In this document: positions 45,963-63,841 of the stretch, one piece after another
Position numbering within the stretch: the first letter of the stretch is position 1
Layout of the letters: each line of letters opens with the position of its first letter
Origin: Candidatus Kuenenia stuttgartensis
Lineage (GTDB): Bacteria; Planctomycetota; GCA-002687715; CAIWVZ01
Length of the DNA stretch: 64,000 bases
Direction: 5' to 3'
NCBI GenBank assembly: GCA_945860915.1
Contig: CAMARR010000004.1
Location: 1-64,000 of the forward strand
Made by a program: the position numbers and the translations under genes
The notes under the pieces: model-generated
Told to the model about the DNA's origin: nothing
Seen by the model: the letters and a program-made list of their open reading frames with translations, nothing else
Database searches by the model: none

Positions 45963-45989
45963 GGCGCGGTTCCGTTCAGGAGCCGCGCC
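45963..45989. terminator. Hairpin between convergent rrf2 and membrane-protein genes
   Basis: GGCGCGGTTCC and GGAGCCGCGCC form an 11-bp stem with one G-T pair. It overlaps the stop codon of the minus-strand gene and lies 22 nt after the rrf2-family stop. Confidence 0.5.
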
Positions 45990-47718
45990 GCGTCATTTCT
46001 AGTCTGATCGATCGGATCGTGAATTCACCTGGCCACGTTGTCGGTTGGATTCGCATCCGGTATCTGCCCGCGCTCGGGGCGATAATCGATCCCGTGGCCA
46101 AGTTCGCCGACATGACGAGAGGCATCGCGACCAGGTCCTTCTGCGGCACTGGCACAAGTTGAATGCGGCCAACCGCCACGGGCCCCGCTCCCCGCGCAAA
46201 TTCGATCATCACCGTCACGGATTCCGAAGCCGATAGATCGAATGGCGGCGAGAGGAAAGACTCCTCCCCGTTCCATGCTCGGAATTGCCCAGACCACGGC
46301 GTTGCGATAACCGGTGTAGGTGGTGTTTCGGAAGCCGCCAACCAGGCTGATGCGATATCCGGATCCGAAAGTGACATGCTGCAGGGGAGTCGCATCCCGT
46401 CTCGGAAGGGTCTGAAGACAACAGTCCGTTCATTTGCTTCGACCATGACGATCACGGGCGCGGCACGCTTCGGCGCGTCGCCTGACGTCATTCTGAAGTT
46501 CAAATTGGTGGTGTCGAGGCCGCGAGTCACGACGTCGGTGAAGTCTGACGGCAATTGAGGTGCAAGTTCGGATGGGATCACCACTCGAACATCCGCACCA
46601 TCCGTGAGCGCTTCTCGGATTCCGCGAGTTAGCACCCCGAGTTGAAATCCAGTGGCATGAGGTCTCGGCGGAGAGAGGCGAAGGCAAGGCACCGCGATGA
46701 GGCCCACGAGGATCAGTGCAACCGCCGTGATGCGCGATCGTCCACCCGAGGCGAGCAGGTGAAGACCCCACTCGATGACACCCGCTGTGGCCGCCAACGC
46801 GGCCGGGAAAAGGACCCACGATCCAACCCGTGCGGGTGCGTCGTCGGCCATGCTCGTCGGCACGACTATCCACGGGATCGGTGACCACAGGACGAGCAGG
46901 GCACATGTCGCAAACTGCGAGCCCCGAGGAGTGCGCCGCCCGAAGACCACCATGACTGGAAGGACCGCTCCAAGTAGGATCGCCCAAGTGATCCACGGCG
47001 GAACGATGTTTAGGAAAGTCGGACATGATTGAGTGAAGAGGATGCGGCTCCATGCTTCCACATGGCCGTCGACATGCGCGCCCGCGCGTAGGGCCATCAC
47101 GAGTGGAATCGTGGTTGCTGAGAACACCAGAAGTGGTGCCGATATTCCATACAGCACCATGGGCGCGGTTCGTCGAACGAGAGCTTCGAAGCCGACTCGA
47201 GGCGTGGCGAGGAGCACAGCCGCGATCGCCGAGTCGGCGACGAATCCCAGAGGGTGAAAGGCGGGGGCCGCCATTGCCAACGCAATCCCGAAGAGTCCCA
47301 CGCTCGGGCGGTCGATGCTCACGCGGAGTAGCGCACACGACCCAATCACGCAGCTAAATGCCAGGACTCCGCCGGTGCTTCGTGGATCGATGGGCAATAG
47401 CCAGCTGCCGGTTGCGGTGGCACCGGCAATTCCGCCAACTAGCGCCGAGAGCCATCGACGGTTATGAGGAGCGATTGCCGCGAGTAACCCCACCGAACCC
47501 AAAAGAAGGAAGATCGCAGCGACGCGCGAGGAAAGATCTGCGCCAAGCGAAGCGACCAGCAGAACTGTCCAGGGAGAGTCGACGATTCCGGCGAGTGAAG
47601 ACGCAGCAGCGGCCACCGATTCATCAACTGGGGGGCTTGGTGCTCCGATGATCGTTGCAGCACTCAAAATGAGCGCGACTGCAACTGCGGCTCGCTGCCA
47701 AGAGCCGTCGAGAGGCAT
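45976..47718 (-). CDS. Polytopic membrane protein of unknown function
   Basis: The 580-residue product carries about ten hydrophobic segments in the first 360 residues (for example AAIFLLLGSVGLLAAI, WAILLGAVLPVMVVF, ITAVALILVGLIAV), then a soluble beta-rich C-terminal domain of roughly 200 residues. The layout resembles GT-C glycosyltransferases, but the usual acidic motif after the first helix is only hinted at by VDESVAAA, so no family is assigned. ATG 47718 was chosen; a TTG at 47721 adjoins the preceding stop. It follows the FabZ-like gene with no spacer to speak of and is probably cotranscribed. Confidence 0.65.
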   Translation of the reverse strand: MPLDGSWQRAAVAVALILSAATIIGAPSPPVDESVAAAASSLAGIVDSPWTVLLVASLGADLSSRVAAIFLLLGSVGLLAAIAPHNRRWLSALVGGIAGATATGSWLLPIDPRSTGGVLAFSCVIGSCALLRVSIDRPSVGLFGIALAMAAPAFHPLGFVADSAIAAVLLATPRVGFEALVRRTAPMVLYGISAPLLVFSATTIPLVMALRAGAHVDGHVEAWSRILFTQSCPTFLNIVPPWITWAILLGAVLPVMVVFGRRTPRGSQFATCALLVLWSPIPWIVVPTSMADDAPARVGSWVLFPAALAATAGVIEWGLHLLASGGRSRITAVALILVGLIAVPCLRLSPPRPHATGFQLGVLTRGIREALTDGADVRVVIPSELAPQLPSDFTDVVTRGLDTTNLNFRMTSGDAPKRAAPVIVMVEANERTVVFRPFRDGMRLPCSMSLSDPDIASAWLAASETPPTPVIATPWSGQFRAWNGEESFLSPPFDLSASESVTVMIEFARGAGPVAVGRIQLVPVPQKDLVAMPLVMSANLATGSIIAPSAGRYRMRIQPTTWPGEFTIRSIRLEMTRRGS

Positions 47719-47721
47719 CAA

Positions 47722-48228
47722 CTATCTCGGAGTCGCGGCGGTGCTCACCGCCATTTGAACCCCTATGATCTCACCCTCGAAACAAAATCGACCTTCGCAG
47801 AATCCTTGGACTGCGAATCGAGAATGTCGCCGATCCAACTTGATCTCCTTGCAAAGTACATAGAGGCGCTGGCCGGGGCGAACCATCGAGCGAAACTTGA
47901 CCTTATCCATGCCGCCAAATCCGAAGAACTTCCCTTCCTCATTACCGAAACGATGGCGATAGCAATATGACGACAGTTGGGCGGCGCATTCCACCATGAG
48001 CGCGCCAGGGAAGATCGGGTCCCCTGGGATATGGCCCCGCACCCAGAAGCCGTCAGGGCGGGCGTCGTGAAAGCCGATTGCGTTCAACGTCGTGGGGTCG
48101 AAGTGGACGATGCCGTCGAGCAACGCAAATTCGAATCGATGAGGAACCGAAGCACGGATTTCGTCGATTGGGACGACTGAGCGGCTCAGATCGATCGAAG
48201 AGAGATCGAAAAATGGTTCAACAGGCAT
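47722..48228 (-). CDS. FabZ-like 3-hydroxyacyl-ACP dehydratase
   Basis: Hotdog-fold dehydratases remove water from 3-hydroxyacyl-ACP in fatty acid synthesis. In 168 residues the signature is GHIPGDPIFPGALMVECAAQ, giving catalytic His66 and Glu80, and VPHRFEFALLDGI is the family N-terminal motif. The FGFGGMDKVKFRSMVRPG stretch follows the usual order. It could be a secondary FabZ or a specialised acyl modifier, since no other fatty acid genes are adjacent. It lies 59 nt after the Mla auxiliary gene and just before the membrane protein gene. Confidence 0.82.
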   Translation of the reverse strand: MPVEPFFDLSSIDLSRSVVPIDEIRASVPHRFEFALLDGIVHFDPTTLNAIGFHDARPDGFWVRGHIPGDPIFPGALMVECAAQLSSYCYRHRFGNEEGKFFGFGGMDKVKFRSMVRPGQRLYVLCKEIKLDRRHSRFAVQGFCEGRFCFEGEIIGVQMAVSTAATPR

Positions 48229-48287
48229 CCGAAACCCTCATAAGACAGGCAACTTACCCCCGAAGGTAGGGGCAGATTAACTTGCGG

Positions 48288-48866
48288 TCAAGGCGTCACG
48301 GCACGAGAAGCATCAAGCAGTGCCATTCCGAGTGCATTCTCCAACGCAGCCACGAACGCGCGAGGGGTTTCGCCATCACACGGTGCGACACCCTTCACGA
48401 CGGGAGACAGAAGGATCTGCCTATCGTCGTTTTCAACGGTCATGGCGAGTGTGACGACGGCTTCCCAGCCAGTATCGGCTTGCGCGATCTCGAATTGCCG
48501 GACATTCACCCGGAGGACGCGGTCAGATCGTAAAGGCGAGGTAGCTCCGAGCACCAAACGGAACTTGCCGTTGGTTGCCAATGCCGCGCGAAGGGAGTCC
48601 TCGACCATCGCACCGATTGGCGCGGCAAACCGATGACCGACAAAGGTCTTCACGCGACCGTCACGCGCCACGACGACGAGTCCTCGTAGGTGTGCGGCGA
48701 CTTCCGTCGACGCTATCCGCAGGACCGGTGCCGACGCAGGCGCCGCTGCCACGGATCCCGTAATGGGTGGGCGAATCAACCACGCCTCCGGATCCGAGGG
48801 TGTTGTGGTGGACGTGCATCCCAAGAGTCCCAATAGGGCTACAGCGGCGAGGTGATGAGTATTCAC
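48288..48866 (-). CDS. ABC-transport auxiliary lipoprotein (PqiC/MlaB-like accessory)
   Basis: The 192-residue lipoprotein has lipobox LLGC after a short signal (acylated Cys17). The mature region (LRIASTEVAAHLRG, RVKTFVGHRFAAPIGAMVEDSLRAAL, RVNVRQFEIAQADTGWEAVV) resembles the ABC_trans_aux family that partners MCE transporters. It ends the mla gene run and its GTG start overlaps the mce stop (GTGA). Its role would be periplasmic or outer-membrane handover of lipid, by analogy with PqiC and LetAB accessories. Confidence 0.75.
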   Translation of the reverse strand: MNTHHLAAVALLGLLGCTSTTTPSDPEAWLIRPPITGSVAAAPASAPVLRIASTEVAAHLRGLVVVARDGRVKTFVGHRFAAPIGAMVEDSLRAALATNGKFRLVLGATSPLRSDRVLRVNVRQFEIAQADTGWEAVVTLAMTVENDDRQILLSPVVKGVAPCDGETPRAFVAALENALGMALLDASRAVTP

Positions 48867-49960
48867 TTGAGTGGCTCCGGGGAACGGGGAAGCGGCGTCT
48901 CTTCAACGGGCTTTGAGAAGATCAGGAGTGACGGATTGCTTCGAAGGAGCGAAGCCAAATCCTCAAGCGCCCTCGCGGCGTCTCGAAGGCCTAGCATCGT
49001 CGGCGCAATCTGCGACCGAGTCAGCGTCGCAATTTCTGAGTCGAGGGTCGCCATCATGCTAGAGACCCTCATCTCAAGGGAGGCGAAGGTGTCGACGGCC
49101 TTCTTCACTTCCTCACCGAACTCATTGGCACGCATCCAATTGGTCGCTGCCGCACGGAGAGCCTCGATGTCCTTGCCTGCGCCATTCATTGTGTTCGTCG
49201 TCGAATCCGCGAGAGCCTCGAGGCGCCCACTTTCGAGGAACTTGCGGAGTCGACTCATGGAGCCTGCAAAGTCTTGGACGATGGTACGGAACTCGCCACG
49301 ATGGTCGAGGTAGAAACTGTCCAAGTCTTCGGTGACTTTGGAGACTCCGGTCAACATGCGACGGGCATCGGGTTCAAGGTTCTTCACCGTGGAGTCAATG
49401 GTCCCCAACATGGCCGTCGCGTTGTCCACCAAGGCGACGACCTTCTTCATGTTCTCGTCGCTCAACCAAACTTGGAGACGCGCGAGCGCCGCGTCGAGGC
49501 GTTCAACGGTGTTCGAGCCGGCTTCCATGAGCTGCCGCATCGTCGACGAGTCAGCTGGAATGATAGACCCAACTGCTAACTCCGGTTCGTCGTCCTGACT
49601 TCCGAACAGTTCGACGTAGTAATTCTTGATCAGGCCTTCTGATGCCAGTCGCGCGCGAGTCGACGGAGTGATGCGTTGCCAAGATTCGACGGCGATGATG
49701 AGTTCGACGCTATTGACGTTCTCGCGCGACGTGCGTGCCTCAAGCACCTCGCCACACCGAACGCCGAGGTAGCGAACGGCGGAACCCTTCTCGATGCCCA
49801 CAATCGAGTTCTTCATGACCAAACGGAAAGGCACCGTGGTCTTCGGCTGCATCCACTTGAGTGCGTCCTTGTTGGACAGGAGCAGAACGACAAGAACGGC
49901 GAGCAGGCCACCGATCAGAAAGACCTTGGCGTCACGCAGTTCAGTGGGCGTCGGATTCAC
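48863..49960 (-). CDS. MCE-domain (MlaD-family) lipid-binding protein
   Basis: MCE proteins form hexameric rings that pass phospholipid between membranes. The 365 residues have one N-terminal membrane helix (about 13-27, FLIGGLLAVLVVLLL), then an MCE/MlaD domain (about 38-115, VPFRLVMKNSIVGIEKGSAVRYLGVRCGEV), and a long helical coiled-coil region (about 150-340). This longer tail resembles PqiB- or LetB-type rather than E. coli MlaD, though only one MCE domain is seen. GTG start overlaps the mlaF stop, and its stop overlaps the lipoprotein start, so all four genes are translationally linked. Confidence 0.9.
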   Translation of the reverse strand: MNPTPTELRDAKVFLIGGLLAVLVVLLLSNKDALKWMQPKTTVPFRLVMKNSIVGIEKGSAVRYLGVRCGEVLEARTSRENVNSVELIIAVESWQRITPSTRARLASEGLIKNYYVELFGSQDDEPELAVGSIIPADSSTMRQLMEAGSNTVERLDAALARLQVWLSDENMKKVVALVDNATAMLGTIDSTVKNLEPDARRMLTGVSKVTEDLDSFYLDHRGEFRTIVQDFAGSMSRLRKFLESGRLEALADSTTNTMNGAGKDIEALRAAATNWMRANEFGEEVKKAVDTFASLEMRVSSMMATLDSEIATLTRSQIAPTMLGLRDAARALEDLASLLRSNPSLLIFSKPVEETPLPRSPEPLK

Positions 49961-50784
49961 GATGTGATCCTATCTTTGGGAGCTCTCGCCTCCAATCGGC
50001 CAGAGAATGTCCCCGTTGCAGCGGTCGTAACGGAGGGTTGGCGGGTGAAGAACGCTCGAATGTCCGGATGGGGGTTGCTGGCGACTTCTTGAAGGGTGCC
50101 ATGAGCGAGAATTTGGCCATCGCCGAGCATCACGATGTCATCGGCGATCGTGTGAAGCGACGCGAGCTCGTGGGTCACGACGACAATCGTCGTTCCAAAG
50201 CGATCTCGGACATCCTTGATGAGGACGTCAAGGTCGGCCGCTGTTACGGGGTCGAGACCTGCAGATGGTTCGTCAAGAAAAAGAAACTCGGGGTCGAGGG
50301 CCATCGCGCGCGCGATTCCTGCTCGCTTTTTCATGCCGCCTGAGACAGAGGCAGGTCGGTATCGCGCGAAATCATCAAGGCCGACCAACGAGAGCTTCTG
50401 ACGGGCAATGTCGAGGGCGAGCGACTCACTTACTCCTCCGCGTTCGAGGATGGGGAATGCGACGTTCTCTGCAAGAGTCAGACTATTGAAGAGCGCGGCG
50501 CCTTGAAACAAGACGCCAACGCGTCTACGAAAATCTCGGATAGCCTGATCTGGAGCCGTAACCAAGTCCACGCCGTCGACGAGTACCTGACCCCCAAGAG
50601 GGTGATTCAGCATCAGGGTGTGCCGCAACAGCGTTGATTTTCCTTTTCCAGAGGGGCCAAGGATGCATGTGATTTTCTCGCGACCGAATTTCACGTTGAC
50701 ATCGCGGATGAGGACGTTGTCATAGCCTGCGTCCAGGTGGGCGAGTTCGATGGGAAAGGGCGACTGTGTTGAGGTGAGGGTCAT
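49957..50784 (-). CDS. mlaF: MlaF-type ABC transporter ATP-binding protein
   Basis: This ATPase powers the MCE phospholipid transporter. The 275 residues have Walker A GPSGKGKST, Q-loop LFQGAALFNSLTL, signature VSGGMKKRAGIARAMAL, Walker B FLFLDEPSAGLDP and switch His in VVTHE, all as in MlaF. The signature KRA is the MlaF-type variant. ATG 50784 was chosen because it lies one base after the mlaE stop; the frame reaching 50832 lies within mlaE. Its stop overlaps the mce start (GTGA). Confidence 0.95.
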   Translation of the reverse strand: MTLTSTQSPFPIELAHLDAGYDNVLIRDVNVKFGREKITCILGPSGKGKSTLLRHTLMLNHPLGGQVLVDGVDLVTAPDQAIRDFRRRVGVLFQGAALFNSLTLAENVAFPILERGGVSESLALDIARQKLSLVGLDDFARYRPASVSGGMKKRAGIARAMALDPEFLFLDEPSAGLDPVTAADLDVLIKDVRDRFGTTIVVVTHELASLHTIADDIVMLGDGQILAHGTLQEVASNPHPDIRAFFTRQPSVTTAATGTFSGRLEARAPKDRITS

Positions 50785-50785
50785 G

Positions 50786-51889
50786 TCACCACCCTGCTCG
50801 AAGGATAATGCGAGTGAATACAGCGTCGACAATGATGATCCAGATGATCGAGAACACCACGGAACGTGTCGTCGATCGTCCGACGCCGGTCGGGCCTCCG
50901 GTTGTCAAGAGTCCTTCGCGCGCCGAAACCGTCGTGATGAAGAAGCCGAATAGCATGGACTTGATTAGACCGACACAGACATGGCGCACCTCGATGGCCT
51001 TCTGCGTTTCCTCCCAATAATCGGCCCATCGAAGGTCGAGTGTAGTCACCGCCGCCAAGCCTCCGCCAATGACACCGACGACATCCGCCACGGTGACGAG
51101 AATCGGCAATGCCACCATGAATGCGGCGAGGCGCGGTGCCACGATCACCTTGATTGGGTCGGAACCCATGACTTCCATGGCGTCAAGTTCCTCGGCAACC
51201 TTCATGGTGCCGAGTTCGGCGGCAAGAGCCGATCCTGAACGTCCTGCGACAAGAATTGCCGTCAAAAGTGGCCCGATTTCGCGCAGCATGGACATGGCGA
51301 CGAGTTGCGCAACGAGGACACCTTGTCCATATTCTTCAAACATCGGAGCCGACTGCCAGGCAAGGACCGCGCCAATCAGCAGGGAGATGAGTGCAACGAG
51401 TGGTATGGCGAAAAGTCCGACATCGGTGACGGCCATGAGGAAGGCAGTAGTGCGGCGGCGTGCGGACCCGCCGAAGACCGAACGCATCCCGGCGATGCTG
51501 CGATTCGCGACGTGGCTCCACTGAAGAACGGCATAAGTGGTTCGATGAATAACGTCGAGTCCGGTCAGATTGCGTGCGCCTGTCGGCGCTTTGGCCTCCT
51601 CTGTGAACGGAATGAACGCTCGTAGAGCACGGTCCTGGTAAGGGTCGTGGGTGATGACTTTCACCTCGAGGCCGCGTGCCTCGAGTTCTCGGCAAAAGGC
51701 ATCGAGCACCACGACACCGTGCGTATTCAACTCCGCATCACCGATGTCCACGTCCACGTCCATGCAGTCGTCGTGCGATGGAACCGATGCCGCCCATCCT
51801 TTGGCGTCCGAGAGATCGGCCGCATTCGGACCGTGAGGCAGCGTGACGCGCAAGGTGTCTCCAAGGCGCGACGTCGTGACCTGATTCAT
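50786..51889 (-). CDS. mlaE: MlaE-type permease with N-terminal STAS-like domain
   Basis: MlaE is the membrane permease of the phospholipid transporter. Of 367 residues, the first 105 look like a STAS domain (beta strands and helix, as in MlaB), so the MlaB function is fused to the permease. The rest is a five-to-six helix MlaE core with conserved stretches GPLLTAILVAGRSGSALAAELGTM, ELDAMEVMGSDP and TTGGPTGVGRSTTRSVV. ATG overlaps the stop of the preceding ASPIC gene (ATGA, 51886-51889). The fused form is known in several phyla. Confidence 0.93.
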   Translation of the reverse strand: MNQVTTSRLGDTLRVTLPHGPNAADLSDAKGWAASVPSHDDCMDVDVDIGDAELNTHGVVVLDAFCRELEARGLEVKVITHDPYQDRALRAFIPFTEEAKAPTGARNLTGLDVIHRTTYAVLQWSHVANRSIAGMRSVFGGSARRRTTAFLMAVTDVGLFAIPLVALISLLIGAVLAWQSAPMFEEYGQGVLVAQLVAMSMLREIGPLLTAILVAGRSGSALAAELGTMKVAEELDAMEVMGSDPIKVIVAPRLAAFMVALPILVTVADVVGVIGGGLAAVTTLDLRWADYWEETQKAIEVRHVCVGLIKSMLFGFFITTVSAREGLLTTGGPTGVGRSTTRSVVFSIIWIIIVDAVFTRIILRAGW

Positions 51890-53661
51890 CGGGAGCTGCG
51901 AGGTGTTGCCCGTCCGGTCGCTTCATCGACCACCAAATACTGGCGGGCGACATGACTCGGGAGCTCAACCACTTTTCCTCCGGGGAATCGTACGAAACCG
52001 CGAAGCATCTTTCCCGATCCCAATCCGATTCGCAGCCGACTATCCGAGGTGGAATAGAACCCGCCCCCATACGTCCGCTGGATCGAATGAGCGCGTCCGA
52101 GGTCGTCGGTGACTTCGACTCTGGCACCGATCGCGTCAAGGTTCTTCGATGTTCCCCTTAGTTCGATGCCGACCCAGTTGCCGCCCGGCGTGTCATTGCG
52201 GCCAAGGGTCGGCGGTCCATCGAGGACGGTCATGAGGACATCGTCATCGCCGTCGTCGTCGAAATCCGCGAGTAGAAGCCCGCGTCCACATTGGGGGGTG
52301 CCGAGCAAGGGGCCCTGGCGGATCGGCCGAAAGCGGGGGATGCCGTCGCTCGATACCCCCTCATGGTGCAGAAGCAGCATGGGCTGCCGATAACTTGTTT
52401 CAAGCGGCGTGCCATCAACTTGAGGGTAGATATGGCCGTTCGCGACGAGCACATCCGGAAGGCCGTCACGATCAAAGTCAGCGCACTTGATGCCCCAGGC
52501 AAGGTCCGGAAACGATGGTGGACCGAACCCTGATACCGATGATGCATCGAGGAAAGCGGCTACCCTCCCACCGATCCGGTTGAGGTAGAGCGTGTTCGTG
52601 TCGTGTTCGAAATTGGTCACCATGACGTCGGGACGCCCGTCAAGGTCGAGATCCGCGATGTCAACACCCATGCCCGCCTGCGGACGGCCGCCCTCACCAA
52701 GATCACAGCCGAGTTGATCGGCGACGTTGATAAATGTTCCACCCGAGTTCTTCCAAAGGTCATTGGGCTGAGAGTCGTTGGCAACATAGAGGTCGACATC
52801 GCCATCGCCCTCGAGGTCGAATGCGACGACACCGAGTCCATACCGAGGAGGCACCTTGTCAAATCCACATGCGACCGTTGCGTCCTCAAAGCGATTACCG
52901 ACGTTGCGAAGAAAGACGTCACTCTGTGGCGGAAGCCCGTGCGGACCACAGGCGACAGCGAGCCCGCGCCAGTCACAGGGCTTGCCGCCGTTCGGCGGGT
53001 TCGCTGGATCGAATGTGACGTACCTCGTGATGAAAAGATCGAGATCCCCGTCACCCTCCGCGTCGAAGAATGCGCTTCCGGCAGTCCATCCTGCTACCGA
53101 GGCTCCCCACGACGCCGTTGCATCGACGAAGGTGCCGCCACGATTCAGGAGCAACGTGGTTTGATTCCACCCTGTGAGGAAGAGATCGGTTTTCCCATCC
53201 GCGTCGATATCGACCGCATACGCGCCCTGATACCAGCCGATGAGTCGGCAACCCGCCGTCGCGGGGGCTTCAATGAACTTGAAGGGTGCGACTTGGATCC
53301 AGAGCGCGGTGGCGGGGGACGCACCTGCAGGCTTCCCATGAAACTGACCACCGTTGCAGAGGAAGACATCGAGGTCTCCATCACCATCTGCATCCAACAC
53401 CGCAGCGCCTTGGCCGAGACTCTCTAGGATTGTCCATTTGCCGTCGGGATCCCCATTCACTTGGACCGTCGTGATGCCTGCTTCACGCGTCATGTCCGTC
53501 CAGATGAATGGCGAAGGACGGGTATCTGCAGACAGGCGGGTCGTCGGCACAGGCCCCGGCGCCCCCATGCCCGCTGAATCCGGCGTCGGAGGCTTAGGGT
53601 CGTTGCACCCGACCAGCAGGGCCGCCGTGACGGCGGTAGCTATTCGCCGACGAAAATGCAC
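51886..53661 (-). CDS. FG-GAP/VCBS-repeat lipoprotein with ASPIC/UnbV domain
   Basis: The 591-residue protein is a lipoprotein (lipobox LLVGC, acylated Cys19). FG-GAP/VCBS beta-propeller repeats (about 90-470) are marked by recurring D-x-D-x-D-G-D-L-D calcium loops such as DADGDGDLDVFLCNGG, DLEGDGDVDLYVAND and DFDDDGDDDVLMTVL. An ASPIC/UnbV domain closes it (GNWVGIELRGTSKNLDAIGARVEV near 500). Such proteins are surface or periplasmic binders. GTG 53661 was chosen since the signal peptide begins there; it overlaps the vWA gene end by 22 nt. The mlaE start overlaps its stop, an unexpected link to lipid transport. Confidence 0.85.
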   Translation of the reverse strand: MHFRRRIATAVTAALLVGCNDPKPPTPDSAGMGAPGPVPTTRLSADTRPSPFIWTDMTREAGITTVQVNGDPDGKWTILESLGQGAAVLDADGDGDLDVFLCNGGQFHGKPAGASPATALWIQVAPFKFIEAPATAGCRLIGWYQGAYAVDIDADGKTDLFLTGWNQTTLLLNRGGTFVDATASWGASVAGWTAGSAFFDAEGDGDLDLFITRYVTFDPANPPNGGKPCDWRGLAVACGPHGLPPQSDVFLRNVGNRFEDATVACGFDKVPPRYGLGVVAFDLEGDGDVDLYVANDSQPNDLWKNSGGTFINVADQLGCDLGEGGRPQAGMGVDIADLDLDGRPDVMVTNFEHDTNTLYLNRIGGRVAAFLDASSVSGFGPPSFPDLAWGIKCADFDRDGLPDVLVANGHIYPQVDGTPLETSYRQPMLLLHHEGVSSDGIPRFRPIRQGPLLGTPQCGRGLLLADFDDDGDDDVLMTVLDGPPTLGRNDTPGGNWVGIELRGTSKNLDAIGARVEVTDDLGRAHSIQRTYGGGFYSTSDSRLRIGLGSGKMLRGFVRFPGGKVVELPSHVARQYLVVDEATGRATPRSSR

Positions 53662-55256
53662 GCGCCGCCCGTGGACGTTGCGAGCTGATCGAGGAGTACA
53701 CGGAGGCCACGAGTCTCGCTCATGCCTACACAGTTGATCTTGATCTTCGCAGACTTGTTCCAAGTCTTTACGTCCGCAAGGATCTCGTCGACGTTCGTCG
53801 TTTCGCCCTCGGTGGGTTCACCGTCGGTCAGGAAGAAGCAGGTGTCGATTCCACCAACACCGCCGGCCTTGCGAGGATTGCCCGTAGTGCCCCCGGTTCC
53901 GGTCTTTGGCTTTCCGGGTGGGAATCCAAAGACGTACTTGAGTGCCGCGTAGGTATTAGTGCGACCGGCCATCATTCCATCGGAATTGAGACCGTCGGAT
54001 TGTCGCATGGATCGAGAACCTCCCGGGGTCGCCGGCTTCTGGCCTTCGACCCAGCGGATCGCTTCCTGAATTCGTTCCTTTGTCGCCTTGACTGGTTCCT
54101 TCTGCCACGGACGGACATCGGTCTCGAACGCGCAGAGGTTGAAATAGGTGTTCTCGTCGAGCGTTCGGAGAGCGGACGCGAGTTCTTCGCGTGCGAGATC
54201 AAGCTTGGGGCTCGACTGGAATTGCAGGTCCTTCGCTTCACCACGTCCACGCTTCACTCGGATCTCATCGAGCATCGAATTGGAGATATCGATAACGAAG
54301 AGCACCTTCTTCGTCACGATCGGCATCTTGTGATAAACGGGAACCCCGCGGCCGTATTGATCCTTGCCCGCGACTTCCTTCTCTTCCTTCTTCGGCGGGG
54401 GAAACTTCCAGTCGGCTTCCGCTCGTTTCCACCAAGAATTCCAGTTGTCGATGTTGTACCCGAACGTCATGGCCGTCATGCGCTCGATGACGCGGCGACA
54501 TTCGTCCTTCGGGCGGCCTTCCGATGCTGCGAGGTATTCGAGGAGGGGAGTGACTCCCTCCTTCACGCGCATCATCTCGATGGCGTGGATCGCCGCAAGC
54601 TGAGTTCTCCATGTGCCGCCGCGAAGCGCATTGATGGCAATCGGTGCCGCCGTTGGATCCTTGATCAGTGCGAGAGAGTCGAGAGCCGCGATTGCCACTT
54701 TCTCCGGCGCACCTGCAACGCACGACATGAGGGCCTTTGTGCCGTCCTTGGACCCGATAAGTCCGAGTGCCTCACACGCCGAGATTCGAACCTCTTCCCT
54801 CTTCGCGGTTTCGGCAACAGCTGCAATTTCGCGCGCGATTCCGTCGGGGCGCTTCTCCATCCGAGCCAACGCGATGATGCAGCCACCCTGGATGTACTCA
54901 TTTTGGTGTTTGAGGCCGCCCACGACAACCGAAATGGCCTCAGGCGTCTTCATTGTCGAGAGCGAGTACGTCGCCCGGTCTCGAACGTGAAAGGACTCGT
55001 CCTTAAGGCCAGTGTTCACGAGCAGCGAAGCGCCTTCAGCATTGTCGACGAACGCAATGCGCTCCATCTGTTCGGCGCGGATCTTGTCATTGGGATCGCT
55101 CGCGAACTGCTTGAACTCCTTGACTCGCTGCTCGTCTTCTTTCGAAAGCACAGGCTTCGCCGGCGGCGGCGTGGGCTTTTGCGCCGGCATTGGAAGGCCA
55201 ACACAGCACGCTGCGACAAGAATGAGGAGGTTACGGAGCATAGGTTTTGAGGACAT
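53640..55256 (-). CDS. HEAT-repeat plus von Willebrand factor A domain protein, exported
   Basis: The 538-residue protein starts with a signal peptide (about 1-26), then HEAT-like helical repeats (about 60-260; LVNTGLKDESFHVRDRATYSLS and relatives) and a C-terminal vWA domain from about 316. The MIDAS begins VLFVIDISNSM (Asp323, Ser325, Ser327), with a later Asp-Gly-Glu at FFLTDGEPTEGET. The vWA fold binds protein ligands through a metal ion. ATG 55256 is used; an ATG at 55241 would also fit the signal. It overlaps the previous gene by 26 nt and the next by 22 nt. Confidence 0.85.
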   Translation of the reverse strand: MSSKPMLRNLLILVAACCVGLPMPAQKPTPPPAKPVLSKEDEQRVKEFKQFASDPNDKIRAEQMERIAFVDNAEGASLLVNTGLKDESFHVRDRATYSLSTMKTPEAISVVVGGLKHQNEYIQGGCIIALARMEKRPDGIAREIAAVAETAKREEVRISACEALGLIGSKDGTKALMSCVAGAPEKVAIAALDSLALIKDPTAAPIAINALRGGTWRTQLAAIHAIEMMRVKEGVTPLLEYLAASEGRPKDECRRVIERMTAMTFGYNIDNWNSWWKRAEADWKFPPPKKEEKEVAGKDQYGRGVPVYHKMPIVTKKVLFVIDISNSMLDEIRVKRGRGEAKDLQFQSSPKLDLAREELASALRTLDENTYFNLCAFETDVRPWQKEPVKATKERIQEAIRWVEGQKPATPGGSRSMRQSDGLNSDGMMAGRTNTYAALKYVFGFPPGKPKTGTGGTTGNPRKAGGVGGIDTCFFLTDGEPTEGETTNVDEILADVKTWNKSAKIKINCVGMSETRGLRVLLDQLATSTGGACIFVGE

Positions 55257-56358
55257 GCTTGCGCCACTCTTCTTGGAATTGAACGGTTGACCAACCGAGC
55301 GCTTTTTGAAGCGCCTTCTTGGTGTCTTTGTCTTTCTTAAGCTCGGAGAACAGCGTGGGGAACTTTGGCCCGTTGGTCGCGATCAGGAACTCCACATACG
55401 ACCAGGTGTACGCCTTTTCCTGCACCGTCAACTTGTCCATGTCGTGGGTGAGGATCGTGGCAAACGCGAGGTCTTTTTTCGCCGCTACGGCCGAGTAGAT
55501 GTTCTTGCGCCAGTCATTTTGACGCCACGGGTCTTTACCGGGAGCGAGTTCGTGAAAGCAAAACGTAGTTGCCTTCTCGAACAATTGAAGTTCGACCCAG
55601 TGCGACATGCCCTCGTCGAGCCACGACGGGAATTCTTGGATGAAACCGTAGGTGGCTTGCGTGAGGATGTGCGTGGCATTGTGGGCGACGTGAGGGTGGA
55701 ACCCGTCGTCGACCGTCATGTCGGGGGGCATGGGGCGCGTTGTGAACTTCGCACCGGAGGATGGAACACCATAGGTGTTGAACGCTTGAGCGTCACGTCC
55801 GACGCCCTGCTGGGTTAGCGTGGTGCGTTTTTGTTCATCGCGAGTTGCAACGAGGAAACTGGTGCACTTTCCTGGAGGTGTCTGTTGCAGTGCTGCACGC
55901 ATCAATGAAGACACTGAGTCTAATCGGACTGCCCATACATAGGAGGCTTTGACTCGATTGAGAGTCGCGTCGCCAATCTTCCACTGAGGAATTGAATAAT
56001 GGAGGATCCACTGTTCCGTTTCGACGTGACTGAATTTCGTCCCGCACTCTTCGTCGAATTTGCGCATCCGGTCGACCCACGACTTGCGCATCGTGAGCTC
56101 GTTTTCGATCTCTGCGCGGGCGATCGGGTTCTGGCACTTCGCGCAAAGGACCTTCTGAATTCCTCGGCAGCACGCCTCGCCCCAAATGGCATCCGTTTTG
56201 AAGTCGGTCTTGGTCCCAAAGACGACCGTGTCCTTGCACTTTTTGGAAGGACATGGAAGTGAGCCGACCCCCTTGCATTCGATGCAGATGTTCTGGGCAA
56301 TGGCTGGCACGGCGGCCATGAACAGGAGGAGGGCAAGCAGAATATGTCGAACCATCAT
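55231..56358 (-). CDS. Exported gluzincin-like protein with HNATH motif and Cys-rich N-terminal region
   Basis: The 375-residue protein has a signal peptide (about 1-22, ending AIAQ). Cys-rich pairs at 25-75 (CIECKG, CPSKKC, CC, CAKC) look like DnaJ-type zinc ribbons. The central segment HPHVAHNATHILTQ followed by PSWLDEGMSHWVE matches peptidase-MA-like gluzincins, in which the third ligand lies in the W-x-x-E-G motif. The catalytic Glu of HExxH is Asn227 here, so peptidase activity is doubtful. ATG 56358 has GGAAGG six bases upstream. Its 3' end overlaps the vWA gene by 26 nt, tying it to the run of exported proteins. Confidence 0.7.
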   Translation of the reverse strand: MMVRHILLALLLFMAAVPAIAQNICIECKGVGSLPCPSKKCKDTVVFGTKTDFKTDAIWGEACCRGIQKVLCAKCQNPIARAEIENELTMRKSWVDRMRKFDEECGTKFSHVETEQWILHYSIPQWKIGDATLNRVKASYVWAVRLDSVSSLMRAALQQTPPGKCTSFLVATRDEQKRTTLTQQGVGRDAQAFNTYGVPSSGAKFTTRPMPPDMTVDDGFHPHVAHNATHILTQATYGFIQEFPSWLDEGMSHWVELQLFEKATTFCFHELAPGKDPWRQNDWRKNIYSAVAAKKDLAFATILTHDMDKLTVQEKAYTWSYVEFLIATNGPKFPTLFSELKKDKDTKKALQKALGWSTVQFQEEWRKHVLKTYAP

Positions 56359-56453
56359 GCGGCACCTTCCCATGCGATGGGGTAACAGGGTCGGGGTGCG
56401 CCCCCGATCCGTTCGGATTATACGGACGGGGCAACCCTGCCGCGCGATCTAAA

Positions 56454-57443
56454 TTAAGGGCGGGATTGGAGCACGTCGGCCAGAATCCGGTCTGAAGCCA
56501 AGCCTTCCGCCTCACCCTCGAAGTTGAGGATAAGCCGATGGCGTAGGGTCGGTAACACCATCGCTTTGATGTCGCTGGAGTCGACGTGCGCTCGACCTAG
56601 GCGGAGGGCACGGACTTTGGCGCAGGCGACGAGCGCCTGAGCTCCGCGAGGGGAAGCGCCGTGGCGAACGAACTTCTTGACCGACGGCGGGGCATCTGGG
56701 GTTGACGGGTGAGTTGCCATCGTCAGTTGAACGGCCAAATCACGCATCGGGGGTGCCAAGATAACCTCTCGTACGAGCGCGCGGAATGTCGCGAGGGACT
56801 CCTTCGAGAGGACGCGCGCGACCTTCTGAACGTGGGATCCGGTGGTCAGATCCAGAACCTTCGCAAGGTCGGAAGCCTGAGGGAATGGCACGAGGATCTT
56901 CATGACGAAACGATCCAACTGGGCTTCGGGCAAGGGGTAGGTCCCTTCCATGTCGATCGGGTTCTGGGTTGCGAGCACCATGAACGGATCTGGGAGATGG
57001 TGTGGGATGCCCGCAACCGTGACCGAACCTTCCTGCATGGCTTCCAGGAGTGCGGATTGCGTTTTAGGAGTGGTGCGGTTGATCTCGTCCGCGAGTACGA
57101 GGTTCGCAAATAGCGGACCTGCCTGAAAACGAAATGTCCGGCCCACCTTCGGATCATCGACGACCACGTTGGTGCCGGTGATGTCAGCTGGCATTAAATC
57201 CGGTGTGAATTGAACCCTCGAGAAAGTCAGATCAACTGCATCTGCGAGAGATCGAACCAGAAGCGTCTTGCCGAGGCCCGGTGCGCCCTCGAGCAGGACA
57301 TGCCCGCCTGCGAGGAGTGCTGTGATCACATGATCGAGGGTCGCTTGCTGCCCGACGACCGCCGACGCAAGCGCACGTTCAAGTGCGAGGCAGCCTTCAG
57401 TGAATGCCGCAACTTCGCGTTCGAGAGATTTCACATCAGGCAT
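56454..57443 (-). CDS. MoxR-family AAA+ ATPase
   Basis: MoxR ATPases act as chaperones for vWA-containing partners and complex assembly. The 329 residues show Walker A GAPGLGKT (53-60), Walker B NLVLADEINRTTPKTQ, sensor 1 ATQNPIDMEGTYPLPEAQLDRF and the C-terminal lid (GASPRGAQALVACAKVRAL). ATG 57443 was chosen because it overlaps the upstream stop by eight bases; the frame extends to 57677 inside the preceding gene. The usual DUF58/vWA partner is not adjacent, but a vWA protein is encoded about 1.2 kb downstream. Confidence 0.94.
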   Translation of the reverse strand: MPDVKSLEREVAAFTEGCLALERALASAVVGQQATLDHVITALLAGGHVLLEGAPGLGKTLLVRSLADAVDLTFSRVQFTPDLMPADITGTNVVVDDPKVGRTFRFQAGPLFANLVLADEINRTTPKTQSALLEAMQEGSVTVAGIPHHLPDPFMVLATQNPIDMEGTYPLPEAQLDRFVMKILVPFPQASDLAKVLDLTTGSHVQKVARVLSKESLATFRALVREVILAPPMRDLAVQLTMATHPSTPDAPPSVKKFVRHGASPRGAQALVACAKVRALRLGRAHVDSSDIKAMVLPTLRHRLILNFEGEAEGLASDRILADVLQSRP

Positions 57444-57981
57444 GGGGTTCCTCGTTAATGGGCAAATCGCGATCATCTCGTCCGATATCCGCAATGGCGG
57501 ACACGGCTTGAAGGTGGCACACAATCCACGGGAGGCCGTCCATGGCCTCAGCGTGGTGTTCGGAGGTTGCGGTATGAGACTCGGCAACGGGAGCCCTGAC
57601 GACCATCCACTCGTTCGGGGCAGCAAGGGTGGCGACGGGAACAATGCCGTGGATGAGAAGGCCCTCGGGGCGGGCAAACCAAATCATGATCCGAGTTTCT
57701 TCCGTTGGTTCGTACAGCCGTCGCTGATGCAAGTCCCCGGAGAGTGCAACGAACTCGTGAGCCCACGACACATCATCTTTCATGATGATGGTCTCCCCGT
57801 GCTGTGTGATGGCATTGCTCGCAATAAATCGGACTTCGGAGTCGGTGATACGAAGATGGGGGCGCCCCTCGAGCCTGAGGTTCTCAGTCAATCGAGTTGA
57901 GAGCTTGTCTACATTGCCGCGCACAATGATCGATGGCGTTGCAATGACGTGGTTTCGGAGTGGAGGCGGACCGTCGGTCAT
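57436..57981 (-). CDS. Protein of unknown function upstream of moxR
   Basis: The 181-residue protein has no signal peptide or membrane segment. It is mixed alpha/beta with strands such as HLRITDSEVRFIAS, TRIMIWFARPEGLLIHGIVPVATL and PWIVCHLQAVSAIADIGRDDRDLP. I do not recognise a family. Its stop overlaps the MoxR start by eight bases, and it begins 15 nt after folC ends, so it is likely in the folC-moxR transcription unit. Pairing with MoxR suggests a conserved partner, which is an inference from position only. Confidence 0.6.
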   Translation of the reverse strand: MTDGPPPLRNHVIATPSIIVRGNVDKLSTRLTENLRLEGRPHLRITDSEVRFIASNAITQHGETIIMKDDVSWAHEFVALSGDLHQRRLYEPTEETRIMIWFARPEGLLIHGIVPVATLAAPNEWMVVRAPVAESHTATSEHHAEAMDGLPWIVCHLQAVSAIADIGRDDRDLPINEEPHA

Positions 57982-57996
57982 CGTGCCCGAATGGTA

Positions 57997-59343
57997 TCAG
58001 CATGCCCCGAGTTCAGCCCGTAGCAGCTGTCTTGCTTCCGCTGCGAGGAAGAACGACCCTGCAATCACGATGAGTCCGCGCGGCCCCGCAGCATCTCGGG
58101 CGGCGTGAAGCGCATCAGCGAGATCCATGCGAGGCTCCGCATCAAATCCATCGCTCATTAGGGAAGTCGCGAGCTGGGCGGGTGATTGGCCACGGGCGGA
58201 CGGGAGCGGGACGCAGTACGTCTTCCGGCAGGACTTAGCGAGGGGCCCAAGGGCGTTCGCCCCGTCTCGGTCGTCTGTGATTCCAACAATGGCGATGATC
58301 GGTCGGCGTTCCGTGTGTTGAGAGAGCTCCGCAAGAGCTAAGGATGACTCGTGGGTGTGCGCTCCGTCGACGATGACTGCCGGGGTACCCGGAAACCACT
58401 CGCATCGCGCTGGAATGGCGACGTCCGCAAGCGCTGCGACGGTTGCCTCTGCGTCAAAATCGTGACGCATGTTCGCAAGGAGCAATTCAACTGCGTTGAT
58501 TGCGATACGTGCATTCAGGGCTTGAATCGCTCCACCTCGAAGATGGACCGTGATGGGCTCGCCGCCGATTGCCGTCTCCAGAGCGACGCGCGGCGCGCCA
58601 TCAAGATCTGGTGTGCGGCGAATCGAGTGCAATGGCGGAAGCACCTCGTTTCCAAAGATCGGGGAGCCAAGTTCCTCGGCAATGCGATGTAGGGTCTCGG
58701 CGCCCGGATCGCGCCGACGTAGTCCGATAACGACCGGGACCCCGGCCTTGATGATTCCGCCTTTCTCGGCCGCGATCGCCTCGTGCGTTGATCCAAGCAG
58801 GGCACAGTGGTCGAGCCCAATGGACGTGATCACCGAAACCGTCGGCATCGTCACATTCGTCGTATCAAGGCGACCGCCAAGTCCAACTTCAAGGACGTCG
58901 GCGTCGACCGACCTAGTGCGAGCCTCAAGCCACGCGACGGCCGTCATCACCTCAAACCACGTTGGTTCGCCCTCAGCCGGGATCAATGGAATCGCGGCAG
59001 CTCGAACGGTCATGACATGCTCGGCGAGCGCCGTGTCGCCGATATGCTCGCCATTGATCACAATCCTCTCGTTGGGCTGATGGAGGTGTGGAGATGTGTA
59101 TCTCATCACGGAAAGGCCATGGAATCGGAGAATGGCGTCGCAATAGTGAGCGACCGTGCCCTTGCCCTTGGTTCCTGTGATGTGAATCACCCTTCGTCCG
59201 AGCTCGGGATGCCCGAGTGCAATAAGCAGGCTCTTTATGCGATTGAGGTCTAGTGAGGCAATGCCCTTGGGAGGGCGCCTCTCAAAGTTGGCAAGCGTGG
59301 AGAGCCAGGCGGCGGCCTCCGCTGAAAATTCCGGGTTCACCAT
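57997..59343 (-). CDS. folC: Folylpolyglutamate/dihydrofolate synthase FolC
   Basis: FolC adds glutamates to folates, and in bifunctional forms also makes dihydrofolate from dihydropteroate. The 448 residues show the P-loop GTKGKGT (57-63), TSPHLHQPNERI, VLEVGLGGRLDTTN with metal-binding residues, and LDHCALLG, IIVDGAHTHESSLAL in the C-terminal domain. The ATG is divergent from the 59413 gene, with closely packed promoter elements in 70 nt between them. folP and folK are not in the window. Confidence 0.94.
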   Translation of the reverse strand: MVNPEFSAEAAAWLSTLANFERRPPKGIASLDLNRIKSLLIALGHPELGRRVIHITGTKGKGTVAHYCDAILRFHGLSVMRYTSPHLHQPNERIVINGEHIGDTALAEHVMTVRAAAIPLIPAEGEPTWFEVMTAVAWLEARTRSVDADVLEVGLGGRLDTTNVTMPTVSVITSIGLDHCALLGSTHEAIAAEKGGIIKAGVPVVIGLRRRDPGAETLHRIAEELGSPIFGNEVLPPLHSIRRTPDLDGAPRVALETAIGGEPITVHLRGGAIQALNARIAINAVELLLANMRHDFDAEATVAALADVAIPARCEWFPGTPAVIVDGAHTHESSLALAELSQHTERRPIIAIVGITDDRDGANALGPLAKSCRKTYCVPLPSARGQSPAQLATSLMSDGFDAEPRMDLADALHAARDAAGPRGLIVIAGSFFLAAEARQLLRAELGAC

Positions 59344-61685: not shown

Positions 61686-61879
61686 GGCAGGCAGCTCGAA
61701 ATTGCGCCTACGAAAGAAGCTTCGCGGGTTCGCGTCAACTGAACAATAATCCGGCAAGGGGGCTTCAGCGACGGCACTTCCATCCGAGAACCTGAGGGTA
61801 AGGATGGTGCGAAAGGTCTCCAGTCGGAAGCCAGCACTCGCCTCCACAACAATCCCAGACTGAAAGGGTGAGTTTCATC

Positions 61880-62713
61880 ATGGGCCTACGAATCAATACC
61901 AACGTCGCATCATTGTCCGCACAGCGCAATCTATCCAAGGCATCCGTGGCTCTCGGCCGGAACTTCGAGCATCTCTCGACCGGCAAGCGCATCGCTCGGG
62001 CATCGGACGATGCCGCAGGTCTCGCAATTTCAACCCGCCTCTCGGCGCAGGTTCGCAGCTTGCAACAGGCCAGCCGCAACGCCAACGACGGCATTTCGCT
62101 CGTCCAGACGTCGGAAGGCTCTCTGGGCGAAATCGCGACCGTGTTGACCCGCGCTCGTGAACTCGCCGTTCAGTCAGCGAACGGCACGCTTTCGGCTACG
62201 GACAAGGACGGACTGCAACAGGAATTCTCTAATCTCCTGAATCAGGTGAATCAGATTGCGACGTCAACCTCTTTCAACGGCATTCCGTTGCTTGATGGCA
62301 CGACTCCGTCGGTAACTCTTCAAATTGGAGCCGGAACGACAGCCGGAACCGACACGTTGTCGGTTGCGTTGACGTCGTCGACGTCCACGGCGCTCGCCAT
62401 CAACACTCTCAATATCGGATCGACGGGAAACACGACGGCTGCCATCACGGCTCTGGACGCTGCGATTGACACGATTTCTTCGTCAAGATCGGCACTAGGC
62501 GCTCTGCAGAACACACTGTCTGGCACGATCTCGGCCATCGACAACCGGTCTGAGAATCTCGCCGGTGCAAACTCGCGAATCGTCGACGTCGACGTCGCGG
62601 CGGAGACTGCTGAGCTCACGAAGAACAACATTCTTCAACAGGCCGCGCTCTCGGTCCTCGCCCAGGCTAACCAGCAGCCGTCGTCGGCTCTGAACCTGCT
62701 TCGAGGCCAATAG
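61880..62713 (+). CDS. Flagellin (copy 1)
   Basis: Flagellin polymerises into the flagellar filament. The 277 residues consist of the conserved D0/D1 ends, with little variable domain: N-terminal [18 protein letters not shown], then [36 protein letters not shown], and C-terminal [20 protein letters not shown] and [23 protein letters not shown] 61880 is preceded by AAGGGTGAG; the frame start at 61868 adds four non-family residues. The protein lacks Cys. A strong terminator follows at 62734, so it is probably monocistronic. It is nearly identical in these ends to copy 2. Confidence 0.96.
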   Translation: MGLRINTNVASLSAQRNLSKASVALGRNFEHLSTGKRIARASDDAAGLAISTRLSAQVRSLQQASRNANDGISLVQTSEGSLGEIATVLTRARELAVQSANGTLSATDKDGLQQEFSNLLNQVNQIATSTSFNGIPLLDGTTPSVTLQIGAGTTAGTDTLSVALTSSTSTALAINTLNIGSTGNTTAAITALDAAIDTISSSRSALGALQNTLSGTISAIDNRSENLAGANSRIVDVDVAAETAELTKNNILQQAALSVLAQANQQPSSALNLLRGQ

Positions 62714-62733
62714 TCTTTAGACGCAGTCGAGCC

Positions 62734-62763
62734 AAGCCGATGGGGCTAAACCCCCGTCGGCTT
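62734..62763 (+). terminator. Terminator after flagellin copy 1
   Basis: AAGCCGATGGGG and CCCCGTCGGCTT form a 12-bp stem (one G-T pair) with loop CTAAAC, followed by TCGTCTTTTCC. Confidence 0.85.
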
Positions 62764-62933
62764 TCGTCTTTTCCAGCACGTCTGTTTGAATCTGCGCAAT
62801 CCAGTCGGAATCATCGATTTGAATCTGTTCGATGTCGATTACAAGTGACGTGTTCTAAATTCCGTCACATTCCGGTGTAGGTGTCTCAAGATCCGACAGT
62901 TCGCTGCCGAAAGAGACTCGTGAAGCCGAACGT

Positions 62934-62963
62934 GCTTCAGTGCCTCTCACAAGGTGCTGAAGC
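62934..62963 (+). repeat. Leader hairpin 1 upstream of flagellin copy 2
   Basis: GCTTCAG and CTGAAGC enclose a loop in which CCT and AGG could extend the stem. It lies about 50 nt before the flagellin start, right before the second leader hairpin. Together they could fold the 5' leader. Confidence 0.4.
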
Positions 62964-62964
62964 C

Positions 62965-62985
62965 CTCGCGAGAGTATCTCGCGAG
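62965..62985 (+). repeat. Leader hairpin 2: doubled CTCGCGAG palindrome
   Basis: CTCGCGAGA-GTA-TCTCGCGAG is a perfect 9-bp inverted repeat whose arms each contain the self-complementary octamer CTCGCGAG. It ends 25 nt before the flagellin ATG. No counterpart is present before copy 1. A binding site or an mRNA structure is possible. Confidence 0.5.
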
Positions 62986-63010
62986 AAATACACCACTGAG
63001 AGGTCAGCAT

Positions 63011-63841
63011 ATGGGTCTTCGTATTAACACTAACGTCGCGTCTCTTTCTGCGCAGCGCAACCTCGGCAAAGCGTCGAGTGCTCTCCAGAGGAACTTTGAG
63101 CACTTGTCGACCGGCAAGCGCATCGCTCGTGCATCGGATGACGCTGCAGGTCTCGCGATCTCAACGCGTCTTTCGGCGCAGGTCCGTAGCTTGCAGCAGG
63201 CCAGCCGCAACGCGAACGACGGCATCTCGCTCGTTCAAACCGCGGAAGGCTCACTGGGCGAAATCGCGAACGTTCTCGTTCGTGCTCGCGAACTCGCGGT
63301 GCAATCGTCGAACGGCACCAATTCGGCCTCGGACAAGGACAAGCTCCAGTCCGAATTCGCGAATCTTTTGGGCCAAGTTGATCAGATCGCGAATGCGACG
63401 TCCTTCAATGGCACGTCACTTCTCGATGGCTCGACTGCAAGCGTCAGCCTCCAAATCGGCTCCGGTACGACCGTCGGCACGGATACCCTCGCGGTGTCCT
63501 TGACGGATGCGAACGCCGCGGCATTGTCCATCGGTACGCTCGACATCGGTTCGACCGGCAACTCGACGGCCGCCATCACGGCCCTTGACTCCGCCATCGA
63601 CAGCATCTCTTCGGCTCGTTCGTCCCTCGGCGCCGTACAGAACACGCTCTCCGGAACGATCTCTTCGATCGACAACCGCGCTGAGAATCTGTCGGCCGCC
63701 AATTCCCGCATCATCGATGTCGATGTCGCGGCGGAGACTGCCGAGCTCACGAAGAACAACATCCTCCAGCAAGCGGCCCTGTCCGTCCTTGCGCAGGCCA
63801 ATCAGCAGCCCTCGTCGGCTCTGAACTTGCTCCGCGGCTGA
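63011..63841 (+). CDS. Flagellin (copy 2)
   Basis: This 276-residue flagellin parallels copy 1 from the first to the last residue, differing mainly in the middle (about 140-220), with the same N terminus [18 protein letters not shown] and the same C-terminal motif [22 protein letters not shown] 63011 was chosen, with GAGAGG upstream; the frame start at 62954 includes the hairpins. A Rho-independent terminator follows. Two flagellins with identical interfaces could copolymerise in one filament. Regulation may differ because the leaders are unrelated. Confidence 0.96.

Follow-up and report, generated by a model that had tools for sequence, protein, structure and literature searches.

The gene cluster studied here is likely to consist of two independent envelope gene sets that abut in one co-directional run and are neighbours, not one machine. 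The analyzed window (64,000 nucleotides) is part of contig C4 (181 kb) of a 2.37-Mb genome that is 87% complete, and the class sample comprised twelve genomes from three families (f1, G000–G002; f2, G003–G005; f3, G006–G011), several of them fragmented, with G000 holding the window. The first set would comprise a MoxR ATPase, a pseudo-gluzincin whose catalytic site is dead, a HEAT/vWA protein, and an FG-GAP/ASPIC lipoprotein, with the pseudo-gluzincin and the HEAT/vWA protein as its presumed core. The second set would be a lipid transporter of the Mpc type. Both sets are probably co-transcribed in this genus, which may be put down to inherited gene order and not to complex formation. Since relatives show the two sets separately, they are most likely neighbours.

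The overlapping series of seven genes reported in the preliminary description is real. All seven genes, from the pseudo-gluzincin to the auxiliary lipoprotein, lie on the minus strand, and their junctions are overlaps of 4 to 26 nt or a gap of 1 nt. That exported proteins lead into an MCE transporter was likewise borne out, with three predicted exported proteins in place of the four originally counted. The first junction, between the gluzincin-like and the vWA/HEAT gene, is a 26-nt overlap (11 nt with an alternative ATG), followed by a 22-nt overlap with the FG-GAP/ASPIC gene if the latter starts from the GTG at 53661. The ASPIC and mlaE genes overlap by 4 nt, mlaE and mlaF (ATG at 50784) are separated by 1 nt, and the mlaF/mce and mce/auxiliary lipoprotein overlaps are 4 nt each. 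However, the run exceeds these seven genes (Table 1). Upstream, it includes a folC-like gene, whose position ahead of MoxR is conserved in relatives, a gene for a 181-aa protein, and the MoxR gene, which is followed by a 95-nt gap to the gluzincin-like gene. The 181-aa protein found no match in an NCBIfam search, and its homologues occupy the equivalent position at four further loci (L040, L041, L229, L232). Downstream, the run continues with a FabZ-like gene, found in the equivalent place at L042, L043, L044, and L051, and with a predicted membrane protein.

Table 1. Genes of the co-directional run in the window, with the most upstream gene listed first
Feature	Position	Strand	Remarks
folC-like gene	57997..59343	-	ORF; name by sequence reading; opens the co-directional run
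181-aa protein	57436..57981	-	8-nt overlap with MoxR
MoxR-type AAA+ ATPase	56454..57443	-	PF07726, E 9e-62 on a longer ORF
Pseudo-gluzincin	55231..56358	-	Cys-rich N-terminus and gluzincin fold; HNATH at the HExxH slot
HEAT-repeat/vWA protein	53640..55256	-	MIDAS residues intact; probable signal peptide, judged by eye
FG-GAP propeller/ASPIC lipoprotein	51886..53661	-	GTG start; lipobox LVGC by eye; five DxDxDG-type motifs
MlaE-type permease with STAS-like N-terminal extension (MpcE-like)	50786..51889	-	PF02405
MlaF-type ATPase (MpcF-like)	49957..50784	-	ABC ATPase match
Single-MCE-domain protein with long C-terminal extension (MpcD-like)	48863..49960	-	PF02470
ABC-transport auxiliary lipoprotein (PqiC/MpcA family)	48288..48866	-	PF03886, E 2e-12
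FabZ-like dehydratase	47722..48228	-	59-nt gap after the auxiliary lipoprotein gene
581-aa predicted membrane protein	45976..47721	-	ORF; closes the run; homologue likewise placed in L051

Tight junctions are frequent on the 181-kb contig. A 4-nt NTGA overlap occurs in 21 of its 98 co-directional gene pairs, and a possible start at −30 to +1 in 37 of the 98, a generous count that accepts any start codon. Close packing is therefore ordinary in this genome, and six tight junctions in series mark an operon and nothing unusual. A promoter scan gave one promoter-like site compared to 3.3 in shuffled sequences, and a terminator scan gave 15 terminator-like sites compared to 12.5. The seven genes are probably co-transcribed in this genome.

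Within the class, the ASPIC and mlaE genes stand head-to-tail in four of the twelve genomes, with the 4-nt overlap in G000, G001, and G008 and a gap of 183 nt in G007. In G009, G010, and G011, mlaE-mlaF is inverted, so that the two genes face ASPIC in convergent orientation and diverge from mce, with mce, the auxiliary lipoprotein gene, and FabZ staying on the ASPIC strand. Contig ends split ASPIC from mlaE in G002, and in G006 MoxR is found together with part of a gluzincin gene at the end of a contig. No MlaE of the fused type was found in G003–G006, with the G003 contig ending inside ASPIC. G003 and G007 each have a divergent MlaE-like match within a long open frame (L230, 2680–4326; L231, 1351–2940), and this second kind of MlaE, a divergent subgroup, is also present in G004–G006 and G008. 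As a control for synteny, 34 orthologs were followed between G000:C4 (41.7–92.7 kb) and G011:C2 (0.3–58.6 kb), and only two breaks in order were found, one of which is the mlaE-mlaF inversion. Proximity is therefore expected without a functional tie and linkage alone says little, so that conserved proximity was rejected as a proof of function. The synteny block could itself be maintained by function. The same block contains two tandem flagellin genes beside aroB (61868–63841; names by sequence reading).

These data bear directly on the proposal that the seven products form one undescribed envelope complex, in which the propeller lipoprotein together with the HEAT/vWA protein and the pseudo-gluzincin would act at the outer membrane as a scaffold or gate of the MCE needle. 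The unbroken overlaps along the seven genes speak for it, as does the physical closeness that survives the inversion in three genomes. Moreover, the 4-nt ASPIC-mlaE overlap is kept in two families, f1 (G000, G001) and f3 (G008), which suggests an old translational coupling under some selection. However, the closeness is explained by the 34-gene synteny, and an inverted mlaE-mlaF breaks up the common arrangement. The neighbourhood survey, which the preliminary description had put forward as a check, turned in part against the complex, the ASPIC-mlaE adjacency being upheld for four of the twelve class genomes. MlaE was found in 243 of 246 genomes of the phylum, and mla is thus near-universal without the exported genes, while the gluzincin-like family profile matched in 123 of 246. 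Among the best 30 mlaE loci, of which 8 come from the class, none of the 22 outside loci has a homologue of ASPIC, vWA, or gluzincin less than 1.5 kb away. Conversely, mlaE was absent from the examined flanks of all 20 gluzincin-like loci outside the class, where ASPIC occurs in one and an adjacent vWA/HEAT gene in three. For the vWA/HEAT relatives, 80 of 128 were listed, with flanks of varying length and many loci representing paralogs in other settings; mlaE appeared in the flank of one of these 80 (same genus), and a gluzincin gene was adjacent in five. The single complex is unlikely, and what looked like a tempting example of a novel envelope complex, though a weak one, is removed. A selB-like gene (name by sequence reading) lies near other-class HEAT/vWA relatives at 14 of 21 loci inspected among the 80 (L082–L122).

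With two separate sets as the preferred reading, the transporter can be considered by itself. The gene order is E-F-D-A, with MlaE (PF02405), the ABC ATPase, and the MCE protein (PF02470) followed by the PF03886 lipoprotein in last place. The MCE protein has 365 aa with one MlaD match at residues 51–118, and it is the only protein with an MCE match in the whole genome. All seven MlaE orthologs match the MlaE family, whereas a STAS match is weak and confined to three of the seven (best E 0.0015), the window protein not being among them. Neither MlaC nor MlaA was found in the twelve class genomes, the window's own genome being 87% complete, while the E. coli and Caulobacter controls matched in both searches. 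The set resembles the canonical E. coli Mla system (MlaFEDB-C-A) in its MlaE, MlaF, and MCE subunits, but differs from it by the missing MlaA and MlaC, an MCE protein that is approximately twice as long, and a PqiC-type lipoprotein. The set accordingly does not fit the canonical system, which requires both MlaA and MlaC.

A closer counterpart is the Mla-Pqi chimera Mpc of Brucella abortus, which consists of MpcE fused to a STAS domain, MpcF, a long MpcD, and the PqiC-like MpcA, and has no MlaC (PMC12436622). Because the window set has the corresponding four genes in the same order (MlaE, MlaF, long MlaD, PqiC-family lipoprotein) and MlaA and MlaC were each found in none of the twelve genomes, the mla part is read as Mpc-type. 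Differences from the Brucella system are the host phylum, the weak STAS signal, and the exported genes upstream. Long MlaD proteins are reported to be widespread, with PVC members lacking the terminal barrel (PMC10665443). The window transporter is thus probably of a described kind and nothing new as a type, and planctomycetes probably possess an Mpc-like lipid transporter. By analogy with Brucella, the STAS-MlaE and MlaF would reside in the inner membrane, a hexamer of the long MCE protein would form a periplasmic needle, and the PqiC-like lipoprotein would sit at the outer membrane. Such an assembly may move phospholipids without MlaA or MlaC, and lipid transport is the function we infer for the window set.

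The first set has its most robust unit in the pair of pseudo-gluzincin and HEAT/vWA protein, more robust than the link of either to mla. The two genes are adjacent and on the same strand in all nine assessable class loci (G000–G003, G007–G011). A paralogous pair was present at all four loci examined, in convergent orientation at two of them, and the pair also occurs in three genomes of other classes (L160, L161, L164), in each case without mla. For these readings of gluzincin neighbours, the second vWA copies L062 and L063 were left out. In G004 and G005, no gluzincin gene flanks the vWA genes, and the gluzincin-like matches, which form a more distant subgroup, likewise lack a vWA gene next to them.

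The vWA domain is C-terminal in the HEAT/vWA protein, for which a structure model of moderate confidence was obtained (mean pLDDT 69). Residues D323, S325, S327, T433, and D478, which we take to be the MIDAS residues, are invariant in 10 of 10 sequences. The model of the partner protein is also of moderate confidence (mean pLDDT 71), and a sequence search of solved structures returned weak matches only. The gluzincin fold was recognized in structure comparisons, with a Foldseek probability of 1.00 to 7bb8 and a VIA-align Z of 12.2 to 9l5o. Over residues ~100–375, the protein shares this fold with the M9 collagenases and the M30 lugdulysin (VIA Z up to 12.2), but unlike them it has a Cys-rich N-terminal part and lacks the HExxH glutamate. 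HNATH replaces HExxH here, and the Glu is absent at this slot in all 31 aligned relatives, where Asn is the most frequent substitute. Peptidase activity is therefore not expected, and an active gluzincin protease was rejected as an identity. In 8 of the 31 relatives (L163, L165–L169, L178, L179), an HExxH motif lies on a different, earlier helix.

Taken together, the pair is probably an exported, metal-dependent binding module. The vWA domain would grip an acidic group through the metal ion it binds, and a surface for peptide binding may come from the dead protease fold. No description of a pseudo-gluzincin and HEAT/vWA pair was found in the titles or abstract openings listed by literature searches for such genes together. 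As a recurrent and uncharacterised unit, the pair is a better experimental target than the supposed complex.

In all ten class genomes in which the gluzincin-like gene was found at this locus, a MoxR gene immediately precedes it, and the ATPase scores above the cut-off for bpMoxR (PF20030). Both observations would suit a MoxR-vWA chaperone or conflict system, in which the vWA protein would be the target of MoxR, with the propeller as third component. Through its closely spaced MoxR, vWA, and propeller genes, the locus indeed recalls the MoxR-vWA beta-propeller ternary systems (PMC7159879). However, in the described system the propeller is fused to the vWA protein, whereas it is a separate lipoprotein in the window. 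Furthermore, the vWA and propeller proteins appear to be exported while MoxR is cytosolic, and a third component with TPR and propeller was absent from the run (45976–59343) in a Pfam search of its genes other than folC and the 181-aa gene. Outside the class, MoxR was found at none of the 20 gluzincin-like loci and at one of the 80 listed vWA loci. We therefore regard this reading as very unlikely. PADLOC returned weak generic matches only, and with an architecture unlike the system described in PMC7159879, a defence or conflict system was rejected.

Another explanation takes the HEAT/vWA protein and the FG-GAP lipoprotein as an integrin-like head for adhesion or wall attachment, to which mla would be incidental. 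The pairing of propeller and vWA domain is described for integrins (PMC3192720), and the window combines calcium-type propeller repeats, five in number by motif, with an intact MIDAS vWA domain in neighbouring genes. The 22-nt vWA/ASPIC overlap is moreover possible in five genomes (G000, G001, G009–G011). In contrast to the integrin head, the proteins here have HEAT repeats and lipoprotein anchoring, and a contact between vWA domain and propeller is hypothetical. In G003, two genes stand between vWA and ASPIC. Among the 80 listed vWA/HEAT relatives, ASPIC is adjacent in one and lies within 6 kb in four, close to a rough chance expectation of about two that was estimated by hand. Considering both sides, we judge the integrin-like head improbable. 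Its extension to the transporter, whereby such a head of HEAT/vWA protein, pseudo-gluzincin, and calcium-propeller lipoprotein at the outer membrane would control an Mpc-type needle from the shared transcript, is very unlikely. One further point in favour of an integrin-like pairing comes from G000 itself, where a second HEAT-vWA gene adjoins two FG-GAP proteins. The cluster at this locus (L069, G000:C8, 506–9062) also includes NamZ, an amidase, and an M15 peptidase, which points to an exported set related to peptidoglycan.
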